In this document: positions 2,619 through 31,847 of the stretch, one piece after another
Layout of the letters: every line of letters begins with the position of its first letter
Numbering within the stretch: the stretch's first letter is position 1
Origin: Streptomyces sp. WZ-12
Lineage (GTDB): Bacteria; Actinomycetota; Actinomycetes; Streptomycetales; Streptomycetaceae
Direction: 5' to 3'
Length of the DNA stretch: 64,000 nucleotides
Assembly (NCBI RefSeq): GCF_028898845.1
Contig: NZ_CP118574.1
Span: 1,612,001-1,676,000 of the forward strand
Translations under genes and position numbers: made by a program
Notes under the pieces: generated by a model
The model's database searches: none
What the model was told of the DNA's origin: nothing
What the model saw: only the letters and a program-made list of their open reading frames with translations

Positions 2619-5252
2619 ATGGTGAATGAATCTGCCGACGACCGGCCCAACGATTCGACGGAAGCCGCGATATCCCCGCCGCGCGGCGGGGAATCGGAGG
2701 CGGGCCTGGAACGCGCCTTTGCCGAATTGCTGGCCAAGGTGCTGACACGCGCCGAACCGGTTCCGGTCGATGGGCATTTTTTTGCGGATCTCGGGGCTGA
2801 TTCGCTGGTGATGGCGCATTTCTGCGCGAGGGTCAGGAAGCGGGCGGACCTGCCGTCGGTGTCGATGAAGGACATCTACGCGCATCCGACCGTGCGGGGC
2901 CTGGCGACGGCGCTGGCCGATGCCGTGCCCGCGGCCGCCGGGGCACCGGCGGACCGGGCCTCCTCGGTGTCGACCGAGGCGCCGCTACCGGGCAGCACCG
3001 TGCGCTATGTCCTGTGCGGGATCGCGCAGTTGCTCTTCTTCTTCGGGTATTCCTACCTGATCGCGTTCACCTTCACGGGCGGTTATGGGTGGGTTGCCGA
3101 CGGGACCGGGCCGGGCGATATCTATGTGCGGGCGGTCCTCTTCGGGGGTGCCGAATTCTTCGGCCTGTGTGCCTTCCCGATCGTGGTGAAGTGGGTGCTC
3201 GTCGGGCGGTGGACCCCGCGGGAGTTCCCGGTCTGGGGAGTCGGGTATCTGCGGTTCTGGATCGTGAAGGTGTTGGTGCAGGCCAACCCGGTCGTGGTGT
3301 TCGTGGGCAGTCCGATTTACCTGTTCTACCTGCGGGCGCTGGGGGCGAAGGTCGGTAAGCACGTCACGGTGTTGTCGCGACACGTTCCCGTGTGTACGGA
3401 TCTGCTCAGCGTCGGTGCGGGGAGCGTGCTGCGTAAGGATTCGTTCTTCCTTTGTTACCGGGCGTATGCCGGGCGGATTCAGACGGGGAGGGTCACTCTC
3501 GGGCGGAATGTGTTCGTCGGTGAGCGGACCGTTCTGGACATCAATTCCTCAATCGGGGACGGGGGGCAGCTCGGGCACACCTCCACCCTTCAGTCCGGTG
3601 ATGCGGTGCCCGCCGGTCAGCGCTGGCACGGGTCGCCGGGGCAGCCGACCGAGCTGGACTACCTGCGCGTCGCGCCCGCGCGGTGTGGCACCGCGCGCCG
3701 AGCGGCGTTCGGTCTGGCCGACCTCGCGCGGACGCTGCTCGTCGTCCTGCCGCTGTCCGTCTTGGTGTTCGCCGTGCTGTGGAGTCGGGTCCCGGTGCTC
3801 GCAGGAACGGGGTTCCTGGCCGAGCAGCCCCTCACCTCGGCGGCGTTCTACGTCAATGCGCTGTTGCTGTCCGCCGTGCTGTTCGTCGGGTTCGTGGTGG
3901 TGGGGCTGGTCGTGCTGGTCAGCCTGCCGCGCGTGATGCACCGGGTGATCGAGCCCGGGGCGGTGTATCCGCTGTACGGCTTCCGTTACACGGTGCACCG
4001 TTCGGTCGCGCGGATGACCAACCTGAAGTTCTTCATCTGGCTGTTCGGCGACAGTTCCTACATCGTCCACTACCTGCGGAGCCTGGGATACGACCTCTCC
4101 CTGGTGGAACAGACCGGTTCGAACTTCGGCAGCGGCCTGCAACACGAGTCGCCGTTCCTGAGCTTCGTGGGCAGCGGCACGATGGTCGCCGACGGACTGT
4201 CCATCATGAACGCCGAGTTCTCCGGCACGTCCTTCAGCGTCGTGCCCACCACGATCGGCAAGCACAACTTCCTCGGCAACCACATCGCCTATCCGCCCGG
4301 CGGTCGGACCGGCGACAACTGCCTGTTGGCCACCAAGGTGATGGTGCCGCTCGACGGCGAAATCCGGGAGGGCGTGGGGCTGTTGGGCTCGCCGCCCTTT
4401 GAGATCCCGCGGACGGTGGAGCGCGACAGCCGCTTCGACCACCTGCGCAGCGGCGACGAACTGCGCAACCGCCTGGCCGCCAAGAACCGGTACAACCTCC
4501 GCACCATGGGCCTGGCATTGCTCGCCCGGTGGGTGCACTTCTTCGGGCTGGTGCTGTTGGGCCTGGCGACCGTCAACGGCGAGGGCTGGTTCGGAAGCCT
4601 GCTGGACGCCGGATTCCTGGTCGGCGCCGTGGTGCTCACCGCCCTCTACTACGGCGTCATGGAGCGGTTCCTGATGCGGTTCCGTGCCCTGGAGCCGCAG
4701 GTGTGCTCCATCTACGACCCGTACTTCTGGCACCACGAGCGGTTGTGGAAGGTTCCGGACACGCACCTCAACGCCTTCAACGGGACCCCGTTCAAGGCTG
4801 TGCTGTGGCGGCTGTTGGGGGTCCGGATCGGCCGTCGGGTCTTCGACGACGGCTGCTACTTCACCGAGCGGACGCTCACCGCCGTCGGCGACGACTGCAC
4901 CCTGAACGCCAGCAGCAGGATCCAGTGCCACTCGCAGGAGGACGGCACCTTCAAATCCGACCGCAGCACGCTCGGCGCCGGATGCACCCTCGGGGTGGGT
5001 GCGCTGGTGCACTACGGCGTGACGATGGGCGACGGCGCGGTGCTGGCCGCCGACTCCTTCCTGATGAAGGGCGAGGACGTGCCACCACGCGCACTGTGGT
5101 TGGGGAACCCGGCCGCCGATGCCGGCTCCCACCGTCGCCAGCCCCCCGCCACAGACACCGGGGCGGAGTCGACGCCGTTGGCCGACCGCCAGACACCGCC
5201 ACGGCGCTCCGCACACCAGGGCACGACCGTCGCCAGACGCACGTCCGGCTGA
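2619..5252 (+). CDS. Carrier domain fused to Pls-type membrane condensation region (stand-alone, no adenylation domain)
   Basis: 877 residues. Residues ~28-100 form a peptidyl-carrier domain with the phosphopantetheine serine at 62 (ADLGADSLVM). After a linker, the protein matches the C-terminal half of Pls/PosA-type synthetases: six predicted membrane segments in pairs (~128-152/171-196, ~367-388/409-436, ~625-680) separate three soluble hexapeptide-repeat regions. Each soluble region ends in a WHGSPGQP, LLGSPPFEIP or LWLGNPA signature. In Pls these tandem domains form the isopeptide bonds iteratively at the membrane. Here the adenylation domain is missing and is presumably supplied in trans by the next gene, 61 nt downstream. 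AAGGAG precedes the ATG. Likely role: polymerising and exporting an amino-acid homopolymer, probably of diaminopropionate given the SbnA/SbnB genes nearby. The substrate is inference. Confidence 0.85.
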   Translation: MVNESADDRPNDSTEAAISPPRGGESEAGLERAFAELLAKVLTRAEPVPVDGHFFADLGADSLVMAHFCARVRKRADLPSVSMKDIYAHPTVRGLATALADAVPAAAGAPADRASSVSTEAPLPGSTVRYVLCGIAQLLFFFGYSYLIAFTFTGGYGWVADGTGPGDIYVRAVLFGGAEFFGLCAFPIVVKWVLVGRWTPREFPVWGVGYLRFWIVKVLVQANPVVVFVGSPIYLFYLRALGAKVGKHVTVLSRHVPVCTDLLSVGAGSVLRKDSFFLCYRAYAGRIQTGRVTLGRNVFVGERTVLDINSSIGDGGQLGHTSTLQSGDAVPAGQRWHGSPGQPTELDYLRVAPARCGTARRAAFGLADLARTLLVVLPLSVLVFAVLWSRVPVLAGTGFLAEQPLTSAAFYVNALLLSAVLFVGFVVVGLVVLVSLPRVMHRVIEPGAVYPLYGFRYTVHRSVARMTNLKFFIWLFGDSSYIVHYLRSLGYDLSLVEQTGSNFGSGLQHESPFLSFVGSGTMVADGLSIMNAEFSGTSFSVVPTTIGKHNFLGNHIAYPPGGRTGDNCLLATKVMVPLDGEIREGVGLLGSPPFEIPRTVERDSRFDHLRSGDELRNRLAAKNRYNLRTMGLALLARWVHFFGLVLLGLATVNGEGWFGSLLDAGFLVGAVVLTALYYGVMERFLMRFRALEPQVCSIYDPYFWHHERLWKVPDTHLNAFNGTPFKAVLWRLLGVRIGRRVFDDGCYFTERTLTAVGDDCTLNASSRIQCHSQEDGTFKSDRSTLGAGCTLGVGALVHYGVTMGDGAVLAADSFLMKGEDVPPRALWLGNPAADAGSHRRQPPATDTGAESTPLADRQTPPRRSAHQGTTVARRTSG

Positions 5253-5313
5253 GCCCCAGTCACCGTGATCGGTCCATCCAGCACGGTACGAGCCGGCGAA
5301 GGGAGCACCAACG

Positions 5314-8300
5314 ATGAAGAAGCTGACCGACGAGGACCGGGCGTACTGGGAACGAGCCCTGGCCGTCGGGGGGTTCACCGCGGTGCCCCGATGGTCGCGG
5401 CATCCGGTGACCGGACTGGCGACGCATGAGCTGACGCTGCCCGACGAGACCGCCGAGGCCCTGACGCGTCAGGCCGCGGCGCTCGGTGCGACGGCGGAGG
5501 CGGTGCTGTTGGCCGCGCACGCCAAGGTGCTCGCCGCACTCTCCGGTGAGGCGGAGGTGACCACCGGCTACCGGCCCGCCGAGGGTGGGCCGGCGCTGCC
5601 GTGCCGGGTGTCCACCGCCGGACACAGTTGGCGCGGGCTGGTGACGGAGTCCACCCGCGCGACGGAGGGCCTGCTCGCCCACCGCGGCGTCAGGGTGACG
5701 GACCTCAGGAACGAACTGGGCCTGGAACATGACCTGTTCGAGGTCGAGTGGGATCTGTCCGGGGGCGGGGAGGAGCTGGCCGAGAGCACCGTGTTGCGGG
5801 TCGCGCCGGTGCGGTGCGGCGAGCGGATGGTGTTGCGGTTGCGGTATCGGACGGAGGTGTTGGACGCCGAGAGCGTGGCCAGGATCGGTGGTTATCACCT
5901 TGCTGCGTTGGCGCAGTTCGTCGCCGATCCGGAGGCCGCGCCGGTGCAGCACGCCTTGTTGTCTGTGGCTGAGCGGCGGGTGCAGTTGGAGGGGTTGGCG
6001 GGGCCGTTTCGGGTGCTTCCGGATCGTCGGTTCCATGAGTTGTTCGAGGAGCGGGTGCGGGTGGAGCCGGGGGCGGTTGCGGTGGTGTGGGGGGAGGAGT
6101 GGTTGTCGTATGGGGAATTGAATGGGTGGGCGAATCGGTTGGGGCGGGCGTTGGTGGCGCAGGGGTTGGGGCGTGAGGGTGTGGTGGGGGTGGTGGCGGA
6201 GCGGTCGGTGGAGTGGTTGGCGGCGGTGTTGGCGGTGTTCAAGGCTGGTGGTGTCTATCTGCCGATCGAGCCGCGTTTTCCGGCTGAGCGGATGGCGGCG
6301 ATGCTCAGGCGTGCCGGGTGTGGTCTGGTGCTGGTGGAGGCGGGGAGTTCGGGGGCGTTGGATGAGGCGTTGGCCATGGTGTCGGGGGTGCGTCGGCTGT
6401 GTGTGGGTGAGGTGTTGGCTGAGGGCGGTTTCGGTGGTGAGGATTTGGGGGTGGAGGTGGGTGCGGATCAGCTTGCCTATGTGTATTTCACCAGTGGTTC
6501 GACGGGTGAGCCCAAGGGTGCGTTGTGTGAGCATGCGGGGTTTTTGAATCATCTGTTCGCCAAGATTGATGACTTGGGGATGGGTGAGGGCAGTGTGGTG
6601 GCGCAGACGGCGCCGCAGTGTTTTGACATTTCGTTGTGGCAGTTGGTTTCGGCGTTGGTGGTGGGTGGGCGCACGCTGTTGGTGGGGCAGGAGACGGTGT
6701 TGGATGTGGGGCGGTTTGTGGAGGAGTTGGCGCGGGGGCGGGTGTCGGTGGTGCAGGTGGTGCCGTCGTATTTGGAGGCGGTGGTGTCGCATCTGGAGTT
6801 GCATCCGCGGGCGTTGCCGGATTTGCGGTGTGTGTCGGTGACGGGGGAGGCGTTGAAGAGGGAGTTGGTGCAGCGGTGGTTTGCGGTGAATCCGGGGATC
6901 AGGTTGATGAATGCGTATGGGTTGACGGAGACGTCGGATGACACGCATCACGAGGTGATGGTGGCGGTTCCGCGGGGGGAGCGGGTTCCGTTGGGGCGGT
7001 GTGTGAACAACGTGCGGGTGTATGTGGTGGATGAGGATGTGGAGCCGGTGCCGTTGGGTGCGCCGGGTCAGATTGTGTTTTCTGGGGTGTGCGTGGGGCG
7101 GGGGTATGTGAATGATCCGGAGCGGACGCGGGTGGCGTTTCGGGAGGATCCGCATCGGGTGGGTGAGCGGTTGTATGTGGGGGGTGATTTTGGGCGGTGG
7201 TTGCCTGGTGGGAAGTTGGAGTTTTTGGGGCGGCGGGATGCACAGGTGAAGGTCCGGGGGTTCCGGATCGAGATCGGTGAGGTGGAGAACGCGTTGTCGC
7301 GGGTGGTGGGGGTGCGTGATGGTGCGGTGGTGGTGGCCGGTGGGGAGGGGCAGGGCAAGCGGTTGGTGGCCTTCTACAGCGGCCCACAACCACTGGAGGA
7401 CGAGGCGCTCCGAGTGCAGTTGGGGGATTCGCTGCCCTCCTACATGGTGCCCACCACCTTCCAGTGGCTGGAGCGGCTGCCGTTGACCGCGAACGGCAAG
7501 ATCGACGGCAAGGCGCTGACCGCCCTCGCCAACGCTTCGGAGGCACCCGAGGAGGGACAGGACGCTCCGCACACCCCCACCGAGCGGCGACTGGCTCGCG
7601 CGTGGGCGGAGGTCCTCGGGGTGCCGGAGGCCCAGATCGGGCGGCGGGATCACTTCTTCGGCCGGGGCGGCACCTCGCTCTCGGCGTTGAAGTTGGTGAT
7701 CGCGCTCGACCGGGCCGTCTCCCTCAGGGAACTCACCACTCACCCGGTGTTGGCTGACTTGGCCGAGCTGCTCGACGGGCACCGGAAGCAGGGCGAGGAC
7801 GACGAGGGCGAGGACGGCGGCGGGGGTGGGCTGCTACAGACGCTTGTCGAGCCGGTGGGTGAGCCTGTCGGTCATCTGGTCTGCTTCCCCTTCGCGGGTG
7901 GTGGCGCGGTGGCTTTCCAGGCGATGGCTGAGGTGTTGCGGGCCGGTGGGTTCGCGGTGCATGCCGTTGCACTGTCCGGGCATGAACCGGCCGATGACCA
8001 GGCGCCGTTCGCGCCGTTGGAGGAGGTGGTCAGGCAGACCGCCGACGAGATCGCCCGACGTGGCCTGGCCGGGGTGGTGTTGTGGGGGCATGCGGCGGGG
8101 GCGGCGTATGCGTGGGCCACGGCACAGTTGCTCCAGGAAGAACAGGTGCACGTCCAACGGGTCTTCCTCGGGGCCCAGTTGCTCGGCGATGCCGCCGAGC
8201 GGCGCGCCGCCGCGGAGGCACTGCTTGCCCGGAGCGACGCGGAGATCGTCAAGGAACTGACCGCGGACAACGACCCGCTCGCACTGGGCGCACTCGACGC

Positions 8301-8589
8301 CCGGCGTGCCGAGCGGGTCGGTGCCGCCTATCGGCATGACGGTGTGGCCGCGCACCGCTACTTCGCGGATGCCTTGGAGCACCCACCAACCACCAGGCTC
8401 ACCGCGCCAGTCACCCTCGTTCTGGCGGACGACGACCCGTTCACCGTCGAGGGGAGCCACCGGCTGGATGACTGGCGGCTGTTGGCCGACCACGTCGAGT
8501 TGTGCCGGCTTCCCGACGGCGGCCACTACTTCCCCCGCACCCGCCCCGCCGACGCGGCCCGGGCCGTCCTGCGCACCGATACCTCGTGA
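5314..8589 (+). CDS. NRPS: partial condensation - adenylation - carrier - serine-less thioesterase
   Basis: 1091 residues. Residues 1-215 resemble the second half of a condensation domain but start after the place of the HHxxxDG motif, so no catalytic condensation is expected. An adenylation domain follows (~235-735): TSGSTGEPKG at 393-402, FDIS at 437-440, NAYGLTE at 533-539, GRRDAQVKVRGFRIE at 639-653, and NGKID with the A10 lysine at 729. By eye, alignment to GrsA puts aspartates 542-543 in the pocket, which suits a basic substrate. Carrier serine is 788 (GRGGTSLS). After an acidic linker comes a type II-like thioesterase whose nucleophile motif reads GHAAG (925-929), with alanine in place of serine; the Asp (1039-1041) and His1071 remain. 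It probably activates and loads L-diaminopropionate for the membrane partner. Codons between 5950 and 7350 are strikingly rich in TTG, GTG and CGG. Confidence 0.88.
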   Translation: MKKLTDEDRAYWERALAVGGFTAVPRWSRHPVTGLATHELTLPDETAEALTRQAAALGATAEAVLLAAHAKVLAALSGEAEVTTGYRPAEGGPALPCRVSTAGHSWRGLVTESTRATEGLLAHRGVRVTDLRNELGLEHDLFEVEWDLSGGGEELAESTVLRVAPVRCGERMVLRLRYRTEVLDAESVARIGGYHLAALAQFVADPEAAPVQHALLSVAERRVQLEGLAGPFRVLPDRRFHELFEERVRVEPGAVAVVWGEEWLSYGELNGWANRLGRALVAQGLGREGVVGVVAERSVEWLAAVLAVFKAGGVYLPIEPRFPAERMAAMLRRAGCGLVLVEAGSSGALDEALAMVSGVRRLCVGEVLAEGGFGGEDLGVEVGADQLAYVYFTSGSTGEPKGALCEHAGFLNHLFAKIDDLGMGEGSVVAQTAPQCFDISLWQLVSALVVGGRTLLVGQETVLDVGRFVEELARGRVSVVQVVPSYLEAVVSHLELHPRALPDLRCVSVTGEALKRELVQRWFAVNPGIRLMNAYGLTETSDDTHHEVMVAVPRGERVPLGRCVNNVRVYVVDEDVEPVPLGAPGQIVFSGVCVGRGYVNDPERTRVAFREDPHRVGERLYVGGDFGRWLPGGKLEFLGRRDAQVKVRGFRIEIGEVENALSRVVGVRDGAVVVAGGEGQGKRLVAFYSGPQPLEDEALRVQLGDSLPSYMVPTTFQWLERLPLTANGKIDGKALTALANASEAPEEGQDAPHTPTERRLARAWAEVLGVPEAQIGRRDHFFGRGGTSLSALKLVIALDRAVSLRELTTHPVLADLAELLDGHRKQGEDDEGEDGGGGGLLQTLVEPVGEPVGHLVCFPFAGGGAVAFQAMAEVLRAGGFAVHAVALSGHEPADDQAPFAPLEEVVRQTADEIARRGLAGVVLWGHAAGAAYAWATAQLLQEEQVHVQRVFLGAQLLGDAAERRAAAEALLARSDAEIVKELTADNDPLALGALDARRAERVGAAYRHDGVAAHRYFADALEHPPTTRLTAPVTLVLADDDPFTVEGSHRLDDWRLLADHVELCRLPDGGHYFPRTRPADAARAVLRTDTS

Positions 8590-8672: not shown

Positions 8673-9677
8673 ATGTCACTGCCATCGTCAACGACCCTGC
8701 TCGACGTAGCCGTTCAGCCCGGCAGACCGCCGATCCTCCTCGCCGAGGGCGGCGACGACCCGGCGCGCTGGGCTGGCCAACACCGAGACGCCCTCTACGC
8801 CACTCTCCGCGAGCATGGTGCGTTGTTGGTTCGTGGGTTGGGTTTGGGTGACGCGGCGGTGACTGCGGCCGTGTTCCGGGCGTTGTCCGGTGGTCTGATG
8901 GCGGAGCGGGAGAGTTTCGCGCCCCGGGAGCGTTACGAGCCGGGGGTGTACTCGTCCTCGAAGTGGCCGCAGAACCAGCCGATGTGCATGCACCACGAAC
9001 TCAGCTACACCACCACCTTCCCCGGCCTGATGCTCTTCGCGTGCCACACCGCCCCCCAGGACGGTGGAGCCACCGCGGTGGCCGACGCCGCGGCCGTACT
9101 GCGGGCGTTGCCACGGCGGTTGGTCAAACGCTTCGAGCGCCAAGGATGGCTACTGACCCGCAGCTACAACAACGAGATCGGCGCCTCCACCCTCGAAGCC
9201 TTCGGCACCGAGGACCGCCACACCATCGAAAACTACTGCCACACCAACGCCATCACCTACCAGTGGCAACCCGACGGCACCCTGCACACCCGCCAACGCC
9301 GCAGCGCCCTGCTGACCCACCCCCACACCAAACAACGCTGCTGGTTCAACCAGATCGCCTTCCTCAACCAGTGGACCCTGGCGCCAGAAATCCGCGAATA
9401 CCTCACCGAGACCTACGGCACCGACGGCCTGCCGTTCAACACCGCCTACGGCAACGGCGAGCCCATCGAAGAAGACGTCATCGACCTGCTCAACACCACC
9501 TACACCACCCACACCGCCCGCGAACCCTGGCAAAGCGGCGACCTCCTCCTCGTCGACAACATCCGCACCGCACACAGCAGAGAACCCTTCACCGGAACCC
9601 GCGAGGTCCTCGTCGGCCTGGCCAACCCCACGCCACTGGCCGACTGCTCACCCACCATCGAGGTGACCACCCCATGA
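8673..9677 (+). CDS. SyrP-like Fe(II)/2-oxoglutarate-dependent dioxygenase (TauD/TfdA superfamily)
   Basis: 334 residues, the usual size of TauD/TfdA-type enzymes. The iron ligands are readable as H107-x-E109 in MCMHHELSY and the distal H301 in RTAHSREPF, with R310 (GTREVL) placed to bind 2-oxoglutarate. The HxE variant, the GGATAVADA stretch and the WFNQ motif (224-227) are characteristic of SyrP-type enzymes that beta-hydroxylate amino acids on or for NRPS carriers. CAGGAGAGG precedes ATG 8673. The stop overlaps the next start (ATGA). In this operon it could hydroxylate the diaminopropionate monomer or the polymer, which would make the product more than a plain homopolymer. That substrate is inference. 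Composition changes abruptly inside the gene, from G-rich codons to C-ending codons near 9150. Confidence 0.85.
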   Translation: MSLPSSTTLLDVAVQPGRPPILLAEGGDDPARWAGQHRDALYATLREHGALLVRGLGLGDAAVTAAVFRALSGGLMAERESFAPRERYEPGVYSSSKWPQNQPMCMHHELSYTTTFPGLMLFACHTAPQDGGATAVADAAAVLRALPRRLVKRFERQGWLLTRSYNNEIGASTLEAFGTEDRHTIENYCHTNAITYQWQPDGTLHTRQRRSALLTHPHTKQRCWFNQIAFLNQWTLAPEIREYLTETYGTDGLPFNTAYGNGEPIEEDVIDLLNTTYTTHTAREPWQSGDLLLVDNIRTAHSREPFTGTREVLVGLANPTPLADCSPTIEVTTP

Positions 9678-10737
9678 CCACCCTCCACCCCGCCCACACC
9701 CACCCACCCAACCCCCGCACCATCCCCACCTTCGCCGTCATCTCCGGCGCCCAAGTCCAACACGTCTGACCGGACACGCCCACCGCATCGTCGACCTGAT
9801 CGAAACCACCTACCGCCTCCACGACAACGGCGAAACCACCAACCCCCCCTCCTTCTTCCTCCACCTCCCCGACCGCCCCACCTCCCGCATCATCGCCCTA
9901 CCCGCCTCCCTCGGCGGCACCACCCCCATCGACGGCCTCAAATGGATCTCCAGCTTCCCCACCAACATCGAAGCCGGCATCCCCCGCGCCTCCGCCGTCC
10001 TCATCCTCAACGACCACGACACCGGCTACCCCTTCGCCTGCCTGGAAAGCTCCATCATCAGCGCCACCCGCACCGCAGCCTCCGCCACCCTGGCCGCCGA
10101 CCACCTCACCCGCACCCGCCCCCGACCCCGCACCATCGGCTTCTTCGGCACCGGACTCATCGCCCGCTACATCCACACCTTCCTCACCGAAACCGGCTGG
10201 CACTTCGACCAAATCGGCATCCACGACCTCTCCCCCGACAGCGCCGCCGGCTTCCGCCTCTACGCAGAACAAGCAGGCACCACCCCCTGGGTCACCATCC
10301 ACAACGACCCCGAAGAACTCATCCGCACCAGCGACCTCATCGTCTTCGCCACCATCGCCAACCAACCCCACATCACCAACCCCACGTGGTTCGACCACCA
10401 CCCCCTCATCCTCCACGTCTCCCTACGCGACCTCACACCCGACATCCTGCTCACCGCCGCCAACTTCCTCGACGACATCGACCACTGCCTCACCGCCAAC
10501 ACCTCCCCCCACCTCACCGAACAACGCACCGGCACACGAGACTTCATCAACGGCACACTCAACGACGTCATCAACGCACGCGTAAAAGTCCCCACCGACC
10601 AGACCGTAGTGTTCTCACCCTTCGGACTCGGCGTACTGGACCTCGCCCTCGGCAAGTACGTCTACGACGAAGTAGCCCGCTCCGACGCCCTCCACGTCGT
10701 CGACGACTTCTTCCACGAACTACGCCGCTATGGCTGA
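9674..10737 (+). pseudogene. sbnB: SbnB-like N-(carboxyethyl-amino)glutamate dehydrogenase (ornithine cyclodeaminase family), frameshifted
   Basis: The N-terminus starts at ATG 9674, overlapping the dioxygenase stop. It reads in frame 2 through TFAVISGAQVQHV and meets TGA at 9767-9769. The rest of the family sequence continues in frame 1 from LTGHAHRIVDLIE to VDDFFHELRRYG (stop 10735-10737). That frame has no ATG, GTG or TTG between its preceding stop (9664) and the conserved body. Restoring one C in CACGTCTGACC rejoins the frames exactly. The body shows the NAD-binding GFFGTGLIA, the KWISSFP segment and ~340 residues in all. SbnB oxidatively splits the SbnA product into L-2,3-diaminopropionate and 2-oxoglutarate. 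The disruption could be a sequencing error or a real loss of function. Almost every codon ends in C. Confidence 0.85.
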
Positions 10738-10773: not shown

Positions 10774-11778
10774 ATGACGGTCATCTCCACCCCTGCGGAC
10801 TTCAACGCCGAGGACCTCTACGTCGACCTGCGGTCGATGGTGGGGCACGCCCTGTTCCTCAAGTGCGAGGGATTCAACTTCGCCGGCTCGATCAAGCTCA
10901 AGGCCGCGACCGAAATGGTGGAGGCCGCCGAGGAGAGCGGGACCCTGCGGGCGGGGTCCATCATCATCGAATCGTCCTCCGGCAACTTGGGCGTGGCCCT
11001 GAGCATCATCGCCGCCAGCAAGGGATACGGCTTCGTCTGCGTGACGGACGCGCGCTGCAACCTCTCGGCGCAGCGGTTCATGGAGGCGATGGGCGGCCAG
11101 GTGCACATCATCTCCGAGCCGGCGTCGCACGGCGGTCTGCTCGGTGCGCGCCTGGCGCACGTGCAGCGGTTGTGCGCCTCCGACGAACGGTATGTCTGGC
11201 TCAACCAGTACTCCAACGCGAACAACTGGAAGGCCCACTACCGCACCACCGCGCCGGCCATCGCGCGCCATTTCCCGCGCCTGAACGTGCTGTTCATCGG
11301 GACGGGCACCACCGGCACGCTGATGGGCTGCGCCCGTTACTTCCGGAAGCTGCACCGGCAGGTGAAGATCGTGGCGGTGGACAGCGTCGGCTCGGTGACC
11401 TTCGGCGGCGAGCCGGCCCGCCGGATGATCCCCGGCCTGGGCACCAGCGTCCGCCCCGCGCTGCTGGACGAGTCGTTCGTGGACGACGTGATCCACGTCC
11501 GGGAGGTGGACACCATCCGGACCTGTCACCGCCTGGCCCGGCGCGGGTTCCTCTTCGGGGGCTCGACCGGCACCGTCGTCAGCGGCGCCCAGGAGTGGTT
11601 GGCCAGGCAGTCCGACCCGGACCTCACGGCGGTGGCGATCTCCCCGGACCTCGGTGAGCGCTACCTGGACACCGTCTACCAGGCGAGTTGGGTCCGGGCG
11701 TTGTACGGGGAGGACGTGCTCGATCAGGATCGGCTGGCGGCGCGGCTGAGTCGGGTCGGTGAGTGGCGCGGCGGCTGA
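10774..11778 (+). CDS. sbnA: SbnA-like N-(2-amino-2-carboxyethyl)-L-glutamate synthase (PLP-dependent, cysteine synthase family)
   Basis: 334 residues of the fold-type II cysteine synthase family. The PLP lysine is K41 in FAGSIKLKAA, the substrate loop is ESSSGNLG (66-73), and the phosphate-binding loop is GTGTTGT (176-182). The FNFAGSIK and SPDLGERYLDTVY signatures are those of SbnA/VioB-type enzymes, which condense O-phosphoserine (or a serine derivative) with glutamate. Paired with SbnB this yields L-2,3-diaminopropionate. The start is ATG behind GGAAGGAGG, 36 nt after the sbnB-like stop, so it should be co-transcribed. It is the last gene of the operon; a hairpin follows at 11890-11912. 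Its codon composition is normal for the window, unlike its upstream neighbour. Confidence 0.9.
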   Translation: MTVISTPADFNAEDLYVDLRSMVGHALFLKCEGFNFAGSIKLKAATEMVEAAEESGTLRAGSIIIESSSGNLGVALSIIAASKGYGFVCVTDARCNLSAQRFMEAMGGQVHIISEPASHGGLLGARLAHVQRLCASDERYVWLNQYSNANNWKAHYRTTAPAIARHFPRLNVLFIGTGTTGTLMGCARYFRKLHRQVKIVAVDSVGSVTFGGEPARRMIPGLGTSVRPALLDESFVDDVIHVREVDTIRTCHRLARRGFLFGGSTGTVVSGAQEWLARQSDPDLTAVAISPDLGERYLDTVYQASWVRALYGEDVLDQDRLAARLSRVGEWRGG

Positions 11779-14459: not shown

Positions 14460-15119
14460 CTAGGCGGGCTCGGGCTCCGGTGTCGTGCCGCGGTCCCGCC
14501 GGTGCACCCGGTCCAGCAGCGCGGCCGGGTCCGGCTCGGCCTGGAGGCCGCGCAGCAGCAACAGCCACAGGTCGTCGAGGTGCTCCTCGATGTTCCGCCG
14601 TCCCTCCAGCGCGTCGGAGACGGTGTGCAGCCCGAAGAAGGCGCAGACCACGCCGTGCGCGGTGACCACCGGCTGCATCCCGACGGCCAGTTCGCCGTTG
14701 CGGGCGGCCTCTTCGAGGAGCTGGGTCACCGCCTCGATCCAGCCGAGGAACGGCGTCGGGAGCTGGGTCTCGATGGCCTTGCGCTCCGCCCACAGTCGAG
14801 CCCCGGCCCGCACCACGACGTCGTCCCGGAACGCCCGCGCCACCTCGAAGCTCAGCCCGACGAGTTTCTCCAACGCCGGTACGCCGGGCTGTCGGTAACG
14901 GCTGATCAGTTGCGGCCAGGTGGCGAAGTGCTCCTCGACGATGGCCAGGGCGAGCTTCTCCTTACTGGCGAAGTGGAAATAGATCGCGCCGCTGGTGCGG
15001 CCGGAATGCGCGCTGATATCGCTGATGCTCGTGCCGGCATAACCCCGCTCGTCGAACAGCGTTGCGGCCGCTTCCAGAAGGAACCTGCGCGTCGTCTTCG
15101 CCCGGATCTGCACATGCAC
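14460..15119 (-). CDS. TetR-family regulator, gamma-butyrolactone receptor (ArpA/ScbR) type
   Basis: 219 residues from a GTG at 15119; an in-frame reading continues upstream to 15218 but lacks a convincing start signal. The N-terminal helix-turn-helix (LLEAAATLFDERGYAGTSISDISAHSGRTSGAIYFHFASKEKL) is the classic A-factor receptor pattern. The ligand domain has RLWAERKAIETQLPTPFLGWI, matching the RLxxER and P-W/F segments of butyrolactone receptors. It is divergent from an AfsA-family synthase, 99 nt apart, which is the standard receptor/synthase arrangement. It probably represses that gene, and perhaps the nearby polymer locus, until the butyrolactone accumulates. Confidence 0.88.
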   Translation of the reverse strand: MHVQIRAKTTRRFLLEAAATLFDERGYAGTSISDISAHSGRTSGAIYFHFASKEKLALAIVEEHFATWPQLISRYRQPGVPALEKLVGLSFEVARAFRDDVVVRAGARLWAERKAIETQLPTPFLGWIEAVTQLLEEAARNGELAVGMQPVVTAHGVVCAFFGLHTVSDALEGRRNIEEHLDDLWLLLLRGLQAEPDPAALLDRVHRRDRGTTPEPEPA

Positions 15120-15218
15120 CTCAGATGTCGTTCTCGTGCCACCTGCTGGAAATGTACCGCGCCCCGCCTCCCCCAATTCACGGGTGCGGGTGTTCGAATT
15201 CCGATATTCCCTAGTCAT
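15120..15218. promoter_or_regulatory. Divergent promoter region between butyrolactone receptor and AfsA-type synthase genes
   Basis: A 99-nt gap shared by two divergent genes. It is noticeably AT-richer near the AfsA side (15190-15218, including TTCGAATTC and ATATTCC). Receptor-binding autoregulatory elements normally lie here, but I could not identify a convincing match to the published consensus by eye. Confidence 0.4.
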
Positions 15219-16139
15219 ATGAATACGTCACCTTCCGGCCCGGCCGAAAAGAGCCGACCGCTCAGTTGGTCCCGGACCGTCGAGCGGGAGTTGGTGCACC
15301 GGACCTCGGTGGCCGAGGTCCTCCTCACGGACGTCCGCCCGGCGCCGGCCACGGACACCTTCGACGCGGCGGCGTGCTGGCCGCGGGCCCACACGACCTT
15401 CCCGCGCACCGGGCCACAACGGCACAGCCCACTGGTCCTGGTGGAGACCCTGCGCCAGCTCGGCCTATACGTCCCGCTGCGGTTCTACGGGGTCCCCGCG
15501 ACATGCCACGCGATCATCACCGACCTGCACTTCCGGCTCTCCCCTGCGGCCGAACCGCCGGCCGCCCCCGGCGCGACCGAGATCACCTGCCGCGCCCGCG
15601 CGAGCGGCGTCCGACGGACACCGGACGGGACCGTCACCGGCCTGCGGCTGGACGTCGACTTCGCCGCTGGAGGGGCGCTTTTCGGCCGGGGCGGCGGCGG
15701 GGTCCGGTTCGTGCCCGAGGCGGGCTACGCCGCCCTGCGCGCCCGGGGCGCGACCGGCACTCCGACGCCCGCGCCCCCGCCGCCGGCGCACCGCCCGGGC
15801 GTCGCCGCGTTGACCGTGAACCACCTCCAGGACGCGGTCCTCGCCCTGGACGGCGACGGGCTGTTGGTGGCGCCGGCCGACCCGCTGCACCCGTTCCTCT
15901 TCGACCACCCCACCGACCACGTGCCCGGGATGGTGCTCCTGGAGGCCGCGCGACAGGCGGTCGCGTACCGCACCGGAGGCGCACTGGCGCGCCCGCGCGG
16001 GGGGCGGCTCAGGGCGGTGCGGTTCACCGAACTCGCGCCGCTCGCCCGCGTGCTGTGCACCCGGCACCACTCGACGTGCGTGTTCCGCATCGTCCAGGGC
16101 GGCACACCAACGGCCTACGGCACCCTCAGTTACGCATAG
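15219..16139 (+). CDS. afsA: AfsA/ScbA-family gamma-butyrolactone biosynthesis protein
   Basis: 306 residues with two hot-dog-like AfsA repeats. The first repeat includes ELVHRTSVAEVLLTD and HSPLVLVETLRQLGLYVPLRFYGVP. The second includes DPLHPFLFDHPTDHVPGMVLLEAARQA, the signature of AfsA proteins. The enzyme condenses a beta-ketoacyl-ACP with dihydroxyacetone phosphate, the first step of A-factor-type hormone synthesis. ATG 15219 lacks a strong Shine-Dalgarno sequence, consistent with a leaderless or tightly limited message. The receptor gene is divergent and a HAD phosphatase follows. No reductase of the BprA/ScbC type is in the window. Confidence 0.9.
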   Translation: MNTSPSGPAEKSRPLSWSRTVERELVHRTSVAEVLLTDVRPAPATDTFDAAACWPRAHTTFPRTGPQRHSPLVLVETLRQLGLYVPLRFYGVPATCHAIITDLHFRLSPAAEPPAAPGATEITCRARASGVRRTPDGTVTGLRLDVDFAAGGALFGRGGGGVRFVPEAGYAALRARGATGTPTPAPPPPAHRPGVAALTVNHLQDAVLALDGDGLLVAPADPLHPFLFDHPTDHVPGMVLLEAARQAVAYRTGGALARPRGGRLRAVRFTELAPLARVLCTRHHSTCVFRIVQGGTPTAYGTLSYA

Positions 16140-26487: not shown

Positions 26488-27891
26488 TCAGGCCGCCAGC
26501 GTGGGCAGCGGCTTCTCGTAGAGCCAGAGGTGCAGCAGGGGGCGGGCCCGGCCGCCGGCGGTGCGTTCGGCGTGCGCGAGGAACGCCGCGGTGCCGGCGC
26601 TCGCGCCGCGGTGGGCGCCGTGCCAGCCGCGGAGCACCTCGAAGAACCGCTGGTCGCCGACGGCCCGGCGGAGCGCGTGCAGGGCGCAGGCGCCCCGGAC
26701 GTAGATCCGGTCGTCGAAGATCCGGCGCTGGCCGGGGTCGGCGATCCGCAGGTCCTGGGGGCGGCCGCGCAGCGCGCGCCATTCGTGGTGGGCGATCTCG
26801 TCGGCCGAGTCCTCGCCGATGTGCTCGGACCACAGCCACTCCGCGTAGGTGGCGAAGCCCTCGTTGAGCCAGATGTCGCGCCAGTCCCGCAGGCTGACGC
26901 TGTTGCCGAACCACTGGTGGGCGATCTCGTGCGCCACCAGGGTCTCCGAGCCGCGCCGACCGTCGATGTGGTTGCTGCCGAACACCGACCGGGTCTGGTT
27001 CTCGACCGGCGCGGCGAGTTCGGCGTCGACCACCACCGCGCCGTACGCCTCGAACGGGTAGCGGCCGAAGAGCGCGCTGAACGCCCGGAGCATCTCCGGC
27101 TGGCGGGCCAGGTCGTGGGCCGCCTCCTCCGCCATCCACGTGGGATAGGAGTTGTGCAGGGCGATCGACGGGTGGTCCGCGCCGGGCCGGACGGTGTCGC
27201 TGTCGTGCCGGAAGCGGCCCGTGTAGAGCGCCGCGAGGTACGGGGCCATGGGGCCGGGGTGGTGGTAGGTCCACCACTCGTGCCGTCCGCTGCGCCGGCG
27301 TTCGAGCAGGGTGCCGTTGGCGAGCGCGTGCTGGCCGGGCGGGACGCCGATCCGGAAGGTGAAGGCGGCCTTGTCGTCGGGGCGGTCGTTGCACGGGAAC
27401 CACGACGGGGCGCCCAGTGGCTGGGAGGCGACCATCGTCCCGTTGTGCGGGTCGCCGGTGCGGTCCCAGCCGATCGGGCCGAACGGGGAGCGCACCGGCT
27501 TGGGCCGGCCGCGGTAGCCGACGTCCACGGTGAAGTGGGTGCCGGTGGACAGCGAGCGCGGGGTTTCCAGGTACACCTTCCCGTTCTGCTGGCGGCTGCG
27601 GACCCGGGTCCCGTCGATCCGGGCGCTGTGCACGGAGAGCCGGGACAGGTCCAACTCCACCCGGTCCAGGGGCTGGTTGGCCACCGCCTCGATGCGGGCC
27701 CGCCCGTCCAGACCGCCGTCGGCGGGGCGGTAGGCCAGGTGCAGGTCGTAGGAGACGGTGTCGTGGGCGTAGGTGCCGTGGCGCGGGAAGTACCGGTCGG
27801 CGAACGGTCCGCCGGGGCCGTCCGCGACCGTCGCGGCGAGGGGCAGCAGGGCGGCGCCTCGGATGAGGGCGCGCCGACTGCATCGGGTCAC
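26488..27891 (-). CDS. Exported M1-family zinc aminopeptidase, coupled to pls
   Basis: 467 residues. The N-terminus TRCSRRALIRGAALLPLAATVADG looks like a signal sequence with a twin-arginine-like SRRALIRG. The zinc site is HEIAH (321-325) with E344 in WLNEG. The exopeptidase motif, normally GAMEN, reads APVENQ (294-299). It starts at GTG 27891, whose last two bases lie inside the pls TGA (GTGA overlap), so it is translationally coupled to pls. Producers of epsilon-poly-lysine are known to carry degrading aminopeptidases that protect the cell or trim the polymer; this gene is well placed for that, but its activity on the polymer is inference. It is about half the length of full M1 enzymes such as PepN, as in other short secreted actinobacterial members. 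Confidence 0.88.
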   Translation of the reverse strand: MTRCSRRALIRGAALLPLAATVADGPGGPFADRYFPRHGTYAHDTVSYDLHLAYRPADGGLDGRARIEAVANQPLDRVELDLSRLSVHSARIDGTRVRSRQQNGKVYLETPRSLSTGTHFTVDVGYRGRPKPVRSPFGPIGWDRTGDPHNGTMVASQPLGAPSWFPCNDRPDDKAAFTFRIGVPPGQHALANGTLLERRRSGRHEWWTYHHPGPMAPYLAALYTGRFRHDSDTVRPGADHPSIALHNSYPTWMAEEAAHDLARQPEMLRAFSALFGRYPFEAYGAVVVDAELAAPVENQTRSVFGSNHIDGRRGSETLVAHEIAHQWFGNSVSLRDWRDIWLNEGFATYAEWLWSEHIGEDSADEIAHHEWRALRGRPQDLRIADPGQRRIFDDRIYVRGACALHALRRAVGDQRFFEVLRGWHGAHRGASAGTAAFLAHAERTAGGRARPLLHLWLYEKPLPTLAA

Positions 27892-30800
27892 GCGGCCGCA
27901 CCCCCCTTCGCGCGGGCCGCGGCGGGACGGGTCGGGCGTTCGCCGGCGATCGGGTTGCCGGCCCAGCGGGTGTGGGCGGGGACGCTCTCCCCGCGCATGA
28001 CCAGCGAGGACGGTGCGATCGAGGCGCGGGCGCCGACCTCGGTGCCGGGGAGCACGATGCCGTGCGGGCCCAGCGAGGCGCCCTCGGCGAGGCGGACGGT
28101 GTCCAGCCGCATGATCCGGTCGTGGAAGAGGTGGGTCTGCAGGACGCAGCCGCGGTTGACGCTGGCGCCGTCGGCGACGGTGATCAGGTCGGTCTCCGGC
28201 AGCCAGTAGGTCTCCAGCCAGACCCCGCGGCCGATCTTGGCGCCGAGGGTGCGCAGCCACCAGTTGAGGACCGGGGTGCCGGTGAACGCGCCGGCCATCG
28301 ACGGCACGGCGAGCGACTCGACGAAGGTGTCGTAGAGCTCGTTGCGCCAGACGAACGAGGACCACAGCGGGTGCTCGCTCACCGTGAACCGGCCGACCAG
28401 CAGCCACTTCGCCGCGGTGGTGATGAGCAGCGCGACGAGGCCCGAGAGCAGCAGCAGCGGGGCGCCGATCAGCGCGGCGAGGCCGAGGCCGCCGTTGGTG
28501 AAGGCGTCCTGTTCGGTGAGGAACACGCCCTCGGCGAGCACCACTGCGCACATCAGCGGCAGCACCCGGCACAGTTCGACGGCGGCCCGGGCCAGCACCA
28601 GCTTGCGCGGCGGCGCGAAGGTGCGCGCCGGGTCGGCCTGGGTCGCCACCCGGGGCAGCGGCATCGCGGGCCGGCCGAGCCAGGAGGAGCCCGGTTCGCC
28701 CTGTGCGGGGGCGTTGGAGAGCACGCCGATCAGGCTGTGGTCGGCGACGTCGTGGCCGGGGTCGACGATGCCGGAGTTGCCGACGAAGGCCCGGCGGCCG
28801 ATCCGGACGGGGCCCAACCGCAGCCAGCCGCCGCGGAGTTCGAAGGGGGCGACCAGGGTGTCGTCGGCGAGGAAGGCGCCGTCCTCGACGTGCAGCAGGG
28901 AGGGCAGCGGCAGCACGGTGGAGATCTCGGCGTGCTTGCCGACCTTGGCGCCGAGCAACCGCAGCCAGTACGGGGTGCCGAGGCTGGCGTAGAGCGGGAA
29001 GAGGCTGCCGCGGGCGCCGTCGAGGAGGCGGGTGATCAGCCAGGCGCGCCAGGCGACGCCGCCGCTGGCCGGGTGCAGCCCCGGGGTGAGACCGCGGCTG
29101 AGGAGCCGGACCGTCGCGGCGGTCACCAGGATCGAGCAGAGGGTGGTGACGATCGCGAAGACGGGGGCGGCGACGAGCAGGCGGACCGCCACGGTGGGGA
29201 GCGTGCCGCTGTTGCGGACCAGGAAGTACGCGCCGACCAGCGCGGGGGCGGCGGTCAGCAGGGCGAGCAGCGGCATGCCGAGGAGCGTGAGCCCGTAGGC
29301 GGCGGTCCAGCGGCGGGAGCGCCGGTAGCGGGGCGCGGGCCAGGCGGTGCCGGCGATCCGCTCGGCGGCGCCGGCCGGGCGGGCCGGGGAGCCGGTCCAC
29401 CGGTCGCCGTCGGGGATCTCACCGCTCAGGCAGCCGCCGGCGGCGAGTTCGGCGTCCCGGCCGACGACCGCGCCGGGCATCAGCATGCTGCGATGGGCGA
29501 CCCGGGCACCGGCGCCGATGCGGACCGCGCCGATGTGCAGGGTGTCGCCGTCCAGCCACCAGCCGGAGATGTCCGCCTCGGGCTCGACGCTGCACCCGTC
29601 GCCGAGTTCGGCGAGGCCGGTGACCGGCGGCATGGTGTGCAGGGCCACGTTGCGCCCGGTGGTGCACCCCAGGGCGCGGGCGTAGAGCCGGGCCCAGGGG
29701 GTGCCGAGCAGGGAGGGGACGCCGAAGGCGGCGACGGTGCGTTCGGCGGTCCACAGTCGCAGGTGGGTGGCGCCGCCGCGCGGGTAGGCGCCGGGCTTGA
29801 TGGAGCCGGCCAGCGCCCGGGCGGCCGCCGCGCCGATCCCGCAGCGCATGGGGGCGCTGAAGAGCACCACCCAGCCCACGATCACCAGCCACCAGGCGGT
29901 GTGCGGGGCCCACGCCTGCGGCGCGAGCAGCCCGAGCACGTTGTCGGCGAGCGCCAGGCCGACCAGTCCGCGCAGCCCGGCGACGCCGTACAGGGCGGTC
30001 TGGACGAGGAGTTGGACGGCGGCGGCGCGGCGCGGGACCGGGCGGACCGGGCGCGCCTCGTCGACCGGGCCGCCGAGCGAGTCGAGGTGCTCGGCCATGT
30101 CGCGGAGCACCGGGTGGCGGTAGAGGTCGGCGACGGAGACGCCGGGGTGGTGGGCCCGGAGCTGGGACGCCATCCGGGCGGCGACCAGGCTGGTGCCGCC
30201 GAGGGAGACGAAGTCGTTGTCCAACCCGGGCCGGACGCCGAGGAGTTCCTCCCAGACGCCGGCGAGGCGGGCGGCGGTGCCGTGCAGGGCCGGGGCCGCG
30301 CCTCCGGGGTCGTTGTCGGCCGGGGTGGACGGCAACGGCCAGGGCAGCGCCTTGCGGTCGACCTTGCCGGAGGTACGGGTGGGCAGGCTCTCGACCTCGG
30401 CCAGGACGGGCACCAGTTGTGCCGGCAGTCTCTCCTTGAGCAGCGCGCGGGCCTTGTCCTGCTGGAAGCTGGAGCCGTCGCCGGTGCGCTGCTCGGGGAT
30501 GACGTAGCCGACCAGGACCTGGGTGCCGGCCGGGGTGGTCTGGACGGCCGCGGCGGCACCGCGGACGCCGGGCAGGGCGCCCAACGCGGCGTCGATCTCG
30601 CCCAGTTCGATCCGGCGGCCGCCGAGCTTGATCTGGTCGTCGGCGCGGCCGACGAAGAGCAGGCCCTCGGGTTCGGCGCGCACCAGGTCGCCGGTGCGGT
30701 AGGCGCGGCCGGTCTGCAGGACGTCGTCGGGGACGTACCGTTCGGCGTCCTTGACGGGGTCGAGGTAGCGGGCGTTGCCGACGCCGCCGATGATCAGCTC

Positions 30801-31847
30801 GCCCTCCTCGCCGTAGGACACCGGCCGGCCCTCGCGGTCGACGACGGCGAGCTGCCAGCCTTCCAACGGCAGGCCGATGCGGACCGGTTGGCCCGGCTGG
30901 AGGCGGGCGGCGCAGGCGACGACGGTGGCCTCGGTGGGGCCGTAGGTGTTCCACATCTCGCGGCCGGGGCCGGCGAAGCGGTCGACGAGCCCGGCGGGGC
31001 AGGACTCGCCGCCCACGATCAGCAGGCGGACCCGGTGCATCGACTCGTCCGGCCAGAGCGCGGCGAGGGTGGGGACGGTGGAGACCACGGTGATGCCGCG
31101 CTCGACCAGCCACGGGCCGAGCTCGTGGCCGGCCCGGACCAGCGAGCGGGGGGCGGGGACCAGGCAGGCACCGTTCCGCCAGGCCAGCCACATCTCCTCG
31201 CAGGAGGCGTCGAAGGCGACGGACAGCCCGGCCAGCACCCGGTCGCCGGGGCCCAGCGGCCGGTCCTGGCAGAAGAGGCCGGCCTCGGCGTCGACGAACG
31301 CGGCGGCCGAACGGTGGCTGACGGCAACGCCCTTGGGCGCGCCGGTCGAACCCGAAGTGAAGATGATCCAGGCGTCGTCCTCGGGGGCCGGGGGCCGCTG
31401 CGCCCCGGTGGGCCGGGCCAGTCCGAGCGGCGGGGCGTCCGGGCCGAGGACGGCGCAGACGGCGGCCTCCCGGAAGACGGTGGCGGCCCGCTCGTCGGGG
31501 TCATCGGCGTCGACCGGTACGTATGCGGCGCCGCTGCGCAGGACGGCGAGGATCGAGAGGTACAGCTCGGCGGTTCCGGACGGCACGCGCACGCCGACCC
31601 GGTCACCGGGGCCGATCCCTTGCTGCCGGAGCTGTCGCGCGCGTCGTTCGATCTCGCTACACAGGTCGTGGTAGGTGATCGCCTCGGCGCCGGTGTCCAG
31701 GGCGAGCGCCTGGGGGTGTGCGGCGGCGGTGGCGTCGAGCACGTCGAGCAGAGTCCGCGGGGCGGGGGTGCCGGCGGTGCGGTATACCGCCCGCGGAGCC
31801 GCGGGCTCTGACGGCTCGAAGGACGATTCGAGAAGGGGCGACGACAT
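27888..31847 (-). CDS. pls: Epsilon-poly-L-lysine synthetase
   Basis: 1319 residues from ATG 31847 (AAAGG upstream), exactly the reported length of S. albulus Pls; 15 extra upstream codons are not used. The adenylation domain is ~30-505: FTSGSTGAPKG 163-173, TYGPTE 301-306, YRTGDL 383-388, GRADDQIKLGGRRIE 400-414, and TSGKVDRKA with Lys495. The carrier serine is 553 (LGGTSLVA). From ~610 six membrane helices alternate with three soluble hexapeptide-type domains ending WTGSPARP, WLGRPAMP and WAGNPIAG. There is no classical condensation or thioesterase domain. The tandem C-terminal domains join free lysine to the growing chain through the epsilon amine. The M1 peptidase follows by a GTGA overlap. 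A distinct protein of the same type is at 2619-5252. Confidence 0.95.
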   Translation of the reverse strand: MSSPLLESSFEPSEPAAPRAVYRTAGTPAPRTLLDVLDATAAAHPQALALDTGAEAITYHDLCSEIERRARQLRQQGIGPGDRVGVRVPSGTAELYLSILAVLRSGAAYVPVDADDPDERAATVFREAAVCAVLGPDAPPLGLARPTGAQRPPAPEDDAWIIFTSGSTGAPKGVAVSHRSAAAFVDAEAGLFCQDRPLGPGDRVLAGLSVAFDASCEEMWLAWRNGACLVPAPRSLVRAGHELGPWLVERGITVVSTVPTLAALWPDESMHRVRLLIVGGESCPAGLVDRFAGPGREMWNTYGPTEATVVACAARLQPGQPVRIGLPLEGWQLAVVDREGRPVSYGEEGELIIGGVGNARYLDPVKDAERYVPDDVLQTGRAYRTGDLVRAEPEGLLFVGRADDQIKLGGRRIELGEIDAALGALPGVRGAAAAVQTTPAGTQVLVGYVIPEQRTGDGSSFQQDKARALLKERLPAQLVPVLAEVESLPTRTSGKVDRKALPWPLPSTPADNDPGGAAPALHGTAARLAGVWEELLGVRPGLDNDFVSLGGTSLVAARMASQLRAHHPGVSVADLYRHPVLRDMAEHLDSLGGPVDEARPVRPVPRRAAAVQLLVQTALYGVAGLRGLVGLALADNVLGLLAPQAWAPHTAWWLVIVGWVVLFSAPMRCGIGAAAARALAGSIKPGAYPRGGATHLRLWTAERTVAAFGVPSLLGTPWARLYARALGCTTGRNVALHTMPPVTGLAELGDGCSVEPEADISGWWLDGDTLHIGAVRIGAGARVAHRSMLMPGAVVGRDAELAAGGCLSGEIPDGDRWTGSPARPAGAAERIAGTAWPAPRYRRSRRWTAAYGLTLLGMPLLALLTAAPALVGAYFLVRNSGTLPTVAVRLLVAAPVFAIVTTLCSILVTAATVRLLSRGLTPGLHPASGGVAWRAWLITRLLDGARGSLFPLYASLGTPYWLRLLGAKVGKHAEISTVLPLPSLLHVEDGAFLADDTLVAPFELRGGWLRLGPVRIGRRAFVGNSGIVDPGHDVADHSLIGVLSNAPAQGEPGSSWLGRPAMPLPRVATQADPARTFAPPRKLVLARAAVELCRVLPLMCAVVLAEGVFLTEQDAFTNGGLGLAALIGAPLLLLSGLVALLITTAAKWLLVGRFTVSEHPLWSSFVWRNELYDTFVESLAVPSMAGAFTGTPVLNWWLRTLGAKIGRGVWLETYWLPETDLITVADGASVNRGCVLQTHLFHDRIMRLDTVRLAEGASLGPHGIVLPGTEVGARASIAPSSLVMRGESVPAHTRWAGNPIAGERPTRPAAARAKGGAAA

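Follow-up and report, generated by a model that had tools for sequence, protein, structure and literature searches.

A two-protein system of the Pls kind, putatively loaded in trans with 2,3-diaminopropionate, in Streptomyces sp. WZ-12

Introduction

Homopolymer synthetases such as the ε-poly-L-lysine synthetase (Pls), whose products are antimicrobial polycations, carry adenylation and polymerisation in one chain in the literature consulted (here and below, what is attributed to published work refers to the accessible parts of the papers). The poly-L-2,3-diaminopropionate (PDAP) synthetase of Streptomyces albulus PD-1 is a single open reading frame (ORF) of 4338 bp, and the genes for L-2,3-diaminopropionate (L-Dap) were reported not to be close to it (PMC4668381). 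The similarity network built around PosA, the δ-poly-L-ornithine synthetase, kept lengths of 1100-1800 residues (PMC10522769). Among nonribosomal peptide synthetases (NRPS), the stand-alone adenylation-thiolation (A-T) module of ramoplanin biosynthesis needs an N-terminal extension for its action in trans (PMC8949500). The present work deals with a five-gene operon in a stretch of 64,000 nucleotides of Streptomyces sp. WZ-12 (contig NZ_CP118574.1, positions 1,612,001 to 1,676,000; this whole stretch is called the window), in which these functions lie on two proteins: P0001, a membrane protein that does not fit the one-chain definition of the Pls-type synthetases, and P0002, which holds the adenylation domain.

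Gene content and domain anatomy

The operon is probably a two-protein system of the Pls kind for Dap, loaded in trans. Gene content, domain anatomy, carrier conservation, adenylation code and operon conservation were computed directly. Five genes were found in the same orientation (forward strand, as are all the domains described in this section; coordinates are those of the window): P0001, a carrier joined to a Pls/PosA-type membrane condensation tail (T-Pls; 877 aa, 2619..5252); P0002, a loading module with half condensation, adenylation and carrier domains (CAT) and a thioesterase-like domain (TE) (1091 aa, 5314..8589), both identified by ORF calls and profile searches; a TauD/TfdA Fe(II)/2-oxoglutarate dioxygenase (334 aa, 8673..9677; PF02668, 144.9 bits); a frameshifted SbnB-like gene of the ornithine cyclodeaminase family (9674..10737), assigned through its paralogue in locus L085 (PF02423); and SbnA, for 2,3-diaminopropionate biosynthesis (334 aa, 10774..11778; TIGR03945, 392.7 bits). 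The TauD and SbnB genes overlapped by 4 bases, as they did in many other loci. A preliminary description of the same DNA had placed a carrier and membrane condensation (Ser62) on one protein and adenylation with a second carrier (Ser788) on another, and both ORFs were recovered where it had put them; its list of parts was right for the domains that it named, and made no mention of TauD, the thioesterase, the half condensation domain or the signs that the window copy is damaged.

P0001 started with a peptidyl carrier protein domain (PCP; residues 34-99, 2718..2915; Pfam PP-binding, 35.9 bits), whose phosphopantetheine site was placed by alignment at Ser62 in the motif LGADSL (2802-2804). It was followed by NRPS_term_dom (TIGR02353; residues 133-832, 3015..5114), matched from position 2 to 695 of the 695 of the profile with 765.2 bits against a cut-off of 423.1; this full-length match assigns the protein to the family and bears out the Pls/PosA kinship expected of it. 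No adenylation domain was found in P0001 by Pfam and NCBIfam profile searches, and it thus does not unite adenylation, carrier and tail in a single chain, as the definition of the Pls-type homopolymer synthetases demands. An AlphaFold2 model (built from 35 sequences; mean pLDDT 68, pTM 0.70) predicted the carrier and then three repeats of a transmembrane hairpin, short helices and a left-handed β-helix, the third β-helix being poorly predicted (mostly pLDDT under 50). The six long helices of the three hairpins each had a Kyte-Doolittle mean of at least 1.85, and the six helices and three β-helices typical of the family were thus recovered by prediction (AlphaFold2 and hydropathy). Foldseek searches with the model retrieved hexapeptide-type proteins, namely CysE (serine), maltose and galactoside acetyltransferases and gamma carbonic anhydrases (26 matches at E 0.001 or better, each spanning a small part of the model). 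Thirty-nine tail positions were conserved at 90% or more across 63 tails from proteins without an adenylation domain (A-less), 8 single-chain tails with a DFE-type code and 22 with a Lys-type code (L066, a cut contig, and L113, from another clade, were left out of these counts). They include E707, GTP722-724, E750 and H771 (P0001 numbering), which are candidates for the active site of the tail.

The predicted membrane-embedded, hexapeptide acyltransferase-like fold would also suit a tail that does not polymerise, but transfers one or a few Dap residues to a lipid or cell-wall acceptor, or closes a small ring; the A-less protein P0059 even bears C-terminal peptidoglycan-binding domains. We consider this highly improbable, since the 39 positions are common to the Lys-type and DFE-type tails and the tested members of the family that these papers name make homopolymers (PMC10522769, PMC4668381). 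P0059, from Pseudonocardia nigra (the species of locus L051), has three carriers in tandem, and tandem carriers (two or three) were found in the four long A-less tails examined (P0035, P0059, P0106 and P0112), which fits carriers loaded from outside.

The N-terminus of P0002 corresponded to half a condensation domain, the C-terminal lobe only (residues 10-226, 5341..5991). It aligned to columns 203-463 of the 470 of a condensation-domain profile made from nine such domains of the fetched loci (hhalign 97.7%, E 1.6e-12), scored 27.6 bits with Pfam PF00668, under the cut-off of 30.6, and the catalytic HHxxxDG motif was absent from the first 260 residues. The adenylation domain followed (AMP-binding residues 244-598 and C-terminal part 656-729, 6043..7500; Pfam; code DIWQSTADDK), then a carrier (residues 759-820, 7588..7773; Pfam PP-binding) with its serine at Ser788 by alignment (7675-7677). 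That each half has a carrier of its own, as previously described, was supported by the conservation of Ser62 in all 70 of the family members aligned, among which 8 are single-chain, and of Ser788 in 58 of the 59 CAT partners, the remaining one showing a gap in a protein cut by the contig end. At the C-terminus, the thioesterase-like domain (residues 854-1076, 7873..8541; Pfam) had Ala927 in the motif GHAAG (8092-8094; alignment) instead of the nucleophilic Ser. This position was Ser in 35 partners and Ala in 2, and the TE was absent or cut off in the other 22 (at least one TE-less partner, L040, was cut by a contig end), for which reason the TE is probably not needed. Transfer by the TE in the manner of SyrC was not kept as a general mechanism for the same reason.

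Two carriers per adenylation domain, together with the tandem carriers of the four relatives, could also mean that two Dap residues are presented at a time to give a comb-like poly[β-(Dap-Dap)], with one residue in the backbone and one in the side chain. Such a Dap polymer has been cited from a polylysine-producing Streptomyces (PMC10522769, PMC9606270), and the genome of the window has a Lys-type Pls as well as the two-carrier system. This explanation is very unlikely: a plain Dap comb would leave TauD without a role, and according to the PosA paper the enzyme behind the polymer combines adenylation, carrier and terminal domains (PMC10522769).

Substrate of the adenylation domain

The code DIWQSTADDK was identical in 56 of the 59 partners, the variants being DIWQATVDDK in two Pseudogulbenkiania and DIWQVTADDK in a gammaproteobacterial metagenome-assembled genome (codes were read by motif alignment, using the GrsA site numbering, and the last code positions of the single-chain groups may be out of register). 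A comparison of the pocket segment with PDB sequences ranked first 9n1u (102.8 bits), whose title is that of the 2,3-diaminopropanoic acid-bound A3 domain of sulfazecin synthetase, followed by PvdL (71.5 bits); in the structural comparison 9n1u also had the highest identity (35%) among the 50 matches listed. In the pocket alignment the residues of PvdL are D-I-W-E-L-T-A-D-D, and they belong to a module that takes 2,4-diaminobutyrate (Dab). Code and nearest solved pocket, in both sequence and structure comparison, point to Dap or Dab, and the agreement between Dap and Dab codes has been put at 80% (PMC12283262). Text searches of the open-access literature for the strings DIWQSTADD and DIWELTADD gave no match.

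SbnA scored above the TIGR03945 cut-off of 350 and lies beside an SbnB-type gene, an arrangement that identifies a Dap-biosynthesis pair. Given the code, the pocket match and these two genes, L-Dap is likely to be the substrate, as had been proposed; of the SbnA/SbnB pair named in the preliminary description, SbnA stood, whereas SbnB is present but broken by the frameshift in the window.

Conservation of the operon

Named genomes were scanned with patterns derived from P0001, which biases the loci towards close relatives, and a sample of 101 Streptomyces genomes served as a less biased check. The scan gave 69 loci, of which 67 held a family member by ORF calls (L083 and L084 were dropped); ORFs were called with a home-made codon score, and start positions are approximate. 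To be counted, partners had to lie on the same strand and within six genes, and the A-less loci used were those whose downstream sequence reached 7.5 kb or more (n = 52). CAT, TauD and SbnB were each present in 51 of these and SbnA in 50, and all five genes were together in 50; because the same set of genes recurs in these 50 loci, the arrangement in the window is not due to chance. Seven further A-less loci ended at contig edges and had partners as far as the flank permitted. None of the four partner genes was found beside the eight single-chain loci (L066 lacks flanking sequence altogether, and that of L069 extends only 1.4 kb downstream).

The sampled genomes contained 35 A-less tails in 30 genomes, and at least 30 of the 35 had a same-strand TauD gene no more than 8 kb downstream. 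The other five tails were those of L087, L127, L128, L129 and L130; in L130, where a contig end cuts the locus, part of TauD was visible. For the two single-chain relatives of this sample, no TauD was seen downstream among the matches listed. In TauD, the residues His107-His108-Glu109 were also conserved (Glu109 in 58 of 58 aligned relatives, His107 in at least 97%), as was the distal His (57 of 58, with one gap); by alignment to clavaminate synthase, these residues would bind the metal. The names of TauD relatives among the 120 matches listed were generic, one of them being "SyrP-like".

In Pseudogulbenkiania (L056) the order was SbnA, SbnB, T-Pls, CAT and TauD, followed by genes for a phosphoglycerate-dehydrogenase-like protein (338 bits, under the cut-off of the model) and a phosphopantetheinyl transferase; the latter was also found in the Blastococcus operon. 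These extra genes indicate that the unit can bring its own supply of precursor (serine pathway, Dap) and carrier activation. Among the conserved genes of the operon, none indicated the use of a further amino acid.

Origin of the two-protein form and of the loading cassette

In a tree of 95 tails (quick method, midpoint root, no bootstrap), the 63 A-less tails formed one group (SH-aLRT 95), nested in a larger clade with the single-chain DFE-code proteins, and the Lys-type Pls and the single-chain protein L088 of the same genome lay on the opposite side. Two entries labelled as split in the input were L066, the cut contig, and L113, which falls with L088. The carrier motif LGA[DN]SL was common to the A-less tails and the eight single-chain sisters. 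In the adenylation-domain tree (38 rows: 22 of the 59 CAT, 8 DFE-type and 4 Lys-type single-chain proteins, and 4 others, further adenylation domains having been excluded deliberately or by filtering on length), those of the partners formed a clade of their own (99/100) apart from those of single-chain Pls, a separation that rests on two long-branch ordinary NRPS adenylation domains and on thin sampling. The term "split Pls" of the preliminary description was therefore abandoned (few outgroups were included), and simple fission of a Pls gene was rejected on the same thinly sampled tree. The separate grouping, plus the half condensation domain and the TE, argues for a recruited module rather than a cut chain, and suggests that a single-chain ancestor lost its adenylation domain and an NRPS module took over the loading.

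The cassette was also found apart from the tail. Eight 20-kb stretches around TauD relatives (L119-L126, 47-59% identity) were hand-picked by eye among the matches listed; none contained a T-Pls match, and six held a CAT partner with the same code (L123 and L125 did not). SbnB and SbnA were attached to the cassette in five (L119-L121, L124 and L126), and L122 had instead a pyridoxal phosphate (PLP) enzyme, an argininosuccinate-lyase-like protein, an ATP-grasp ligase and Cys at the TE nucleophile position. The neighbours in L124 were a phosphoglycerate dehydrogenase and, by eye, ketosynthases and a ketoreductase. From these gene neighbourhoods, the loading cassette seems to serve several condensing machineries, the membrane tail being one of them.

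Two of these stretches had further features. In L119 (654-13442) the cassette was part of an NRPS cluster that also encodes a 1211-aa A-KR-T protein, and another TauD came directly after SbnA; L120 and L121 resembled it by eye, only L119 having been scanned. L122 (1359-10359) also contained a GHMP kinase, and its TauD lay on the other strand; it may represent an alternative Dap pathway.

State of the window copy

The first frame of the window SbnB stops at 9767-9769, and the remainder reads in another frame. Ala at the TE nucleophile position was found in only 2 of the 37 partners whose TE aligned there. The same genome has a paralogous five-gene operon without these defects (L085, near C1:8.56 Mb; 67-79% identity), whose SbnB, like copies in other species, is open (over 334 aa in L085), and a reduced third copy (L087) with T-Pls and SbnA only. 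Partial decay of the window operon is possible, as is its complementation by the SbnB of the paralogue. The frameshift, the rare Ala and the paralogue free of these defects could even mean that the window operon is a decaying duplicate that makes nothing by itself. This is somewhat unlikely: T-Pls, the adenylation domain, both carriers, TauD and SbnA have uninterrupted frames and have kept their motifs, the paralogue could supply SbnB, the frameshift could be a sequencing error, and the TE is often missing elsewhere too.

Neighbouring genes and related loci of the genome

A single-chain Pls with the code DAESIGTVV, and an M1-family peptidase directly downstream of it, lie about 15 kb from SbnA (26488-31847, reverse strand); the pair looks like an ε-polylysine synthetase with its degrading enzyme. 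About 3 kb downstream of SbnA, a TetR-type regulator stands by an AfsA-domain protein (14460-16139), and the two look like a γ-butyrolactone receptor and its signal synthase.

Elsewhere in the genome, L089 (C1:4185000-4204000) contained a fourth SbnA above the cut-off, followed by a gene resembling SbnB by eye, preceded by an HpaB-type monooxygenase and accompanied by an adenylation-domain gene in the same stretch, and is perhaps another Dap-using cluster. L088 (C1:3698000-3712000) encoded a single-chain A-T-Pls protein of a size close to that of the published poly-Dap synthetase; as an orthologue of the PD-1 enzyme it was considered not proven, its frame of 1438 aa being slightly shorter than 4338 bp allows.

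Proposed mechanism

According to the proposed mechanism, SbnA and SbnB would make L-Dap, which the adenylation domain of P0002 would activate and load onto its own carrier at Ser788. TauD, to judge from its genetic linkage, probably oxidises Dap on this carrier; carrier-bound amino acids undergo oxidation in other NRPS pathways. The aminoacyl group would then be handed to Ser62 of P0001, or the adenylation domain of P0002 would load Ser62 directly; a relay between two carrier arms, already put forward in the preliminary description, was judged plausible, and the half condensation domain may serve for docking during the hand-over. The membrane tail would use the side-chain amines of the Dap residues to join them, which would give a short isopeptide of cationic character. 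Release by the tail without a thioesterase is assumed, because the TE is missing or cut in 22 of the 59 partners and the PDAP synthetase has no traditional one (PMC4668381).

More tentatively, and with chances that we would put below even, the first carrier could be an oxidation station and the second could feed the tail. The product would be an undescribed oxidised Dap isopeptide, and the enzymes a class of cassette-loaded polymerases present in about 30% of the sampled Streptomyces and in some beta- and gammaproteobacteria.

Several points weigh against the in-trans system as proposed. A hydroxyl group on an amine-bearing carbon of Dap would be unstable unless the amine is acylated, which leaves the chemistry of TauD unexplained. 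The whole adenylation domain was best matched by linear gramicidin synthase A (451.8 bits, in two stretches), above 9n1u (275.3 bits over 399 residues). Dap specificity has been published for a single-chain enzyme, and L088, the protein of the window genome that is similar to it, has a different code. T-Pls occurred without any partner nearby in L127, L128 and L053, with SbnA only in L087, and with CAT and a divergent SbnA, but neither TauD nor SbnB nearby, in L129. Operons shared by descent overstate the independence of the conservation counts, and the window copy itself has a frameshifted SbnB and Ala at the TE nucleophile.

An ordinary linear β-poly-Dap, with the adenylation module only regulating supply and TauD acting elsewhere or trimming the product, would account for the Dap supply genes and the adenylation code, and for L129, which retains T-Pls, CAT and SbnA without TauD. 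It seems distinctly unlikely, as TauD is in the operon at 51 of 52 loci and accompanies CAT in other clusters.

With a separate and interchangeable loading module, as in the two-protein system, it would be possible to test directly how the tail receives its substrate and whether tailored units can be polymerised. Ordinary NRPS clusters have the same loading cassette, which hints at an easy way of obtaining new cationic polymers. A-less tails are common (30 of the 101 sampled Streptomyces genomes), yet lie outside the PosA family network, which left out these chains of about 850 aa because of its length range of 1100-1800 residues (PMC10522769). In the open-access literature, searched mostly by titles and abstract openings, no description of the two-protein system was found, and none of the papers listed for Dap together with TauD, SbnA or hydroxylation fitted the operon by its title or abstract opening.

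Comparison with known systems

The system resembles Pls in its TIGR02353 tail, its three helix pairs and three predicted β-helices, and the position of the carrier directly before the tail. It differs in that P0001 has no adenylation domain, adenylation being left to another protein, which has a carrier of its own, a half condensation domain and often a TE, and in that the code of P0002 is of the Dap type, against DAESIGTVV, which we take to mean Lys, in the Pls of the window. With PosA it shares the tail family and a modelled three-fold β-helix architecture, but PosA is single-chain (PMC10522769).

The PDAP synthetase of S. albulus PD-1, to which the preliminary description had likened the operon, has a tail of the same family, SbnA/SbnB-type L-Dap enzymes and the L-Dap monomer (published for PD-1, predicted here) in common with it (PMC4668381). 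The likeness did not extend to architecture: the PD-1 enzyme is one ORF of about 4.3 kb with adenylation, PCP and tail, its L-Dap genes lying apart (PMC4668381), against two ORFs (877 and 1091 aa) in the window. Identity with that synthetase was rejected on architecture; L088 falls in the other tail clade and has the code DFEYVGTVT.

In the syringomycin (SyrB1-SyrB2-SyrC-SyrE) and ramoplanin/enduracidin systems, as is proposed here, a separate A-T protein loads an A-less partner, and the oxidative enzyme SyrB2 acts on the first carrier (PMC8949500), by analogy with which TauD may act in this operon. Both elements of loading in trans, the separate A-T protein and an A-less partner with its own carrier, were found in the window, the partner being a membrane Pls-type tail instead of a C-T-TE module. 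No separate gene for a SyrC-like shuttle (α/β-hydrolase fold) was found among the five conserved genes. The nucleophile of SyrC-type shuttles is Cys. The dapdiamide system (DdaA-DdaD) reportedly combines Dap supply genes with an NRPS holding a Dap derivative on which an Fe/2-oxoglutarate enzyme acts, whereas the operon described here has no conserved acyl ligases and its product would be joined by a Pls-type tail.

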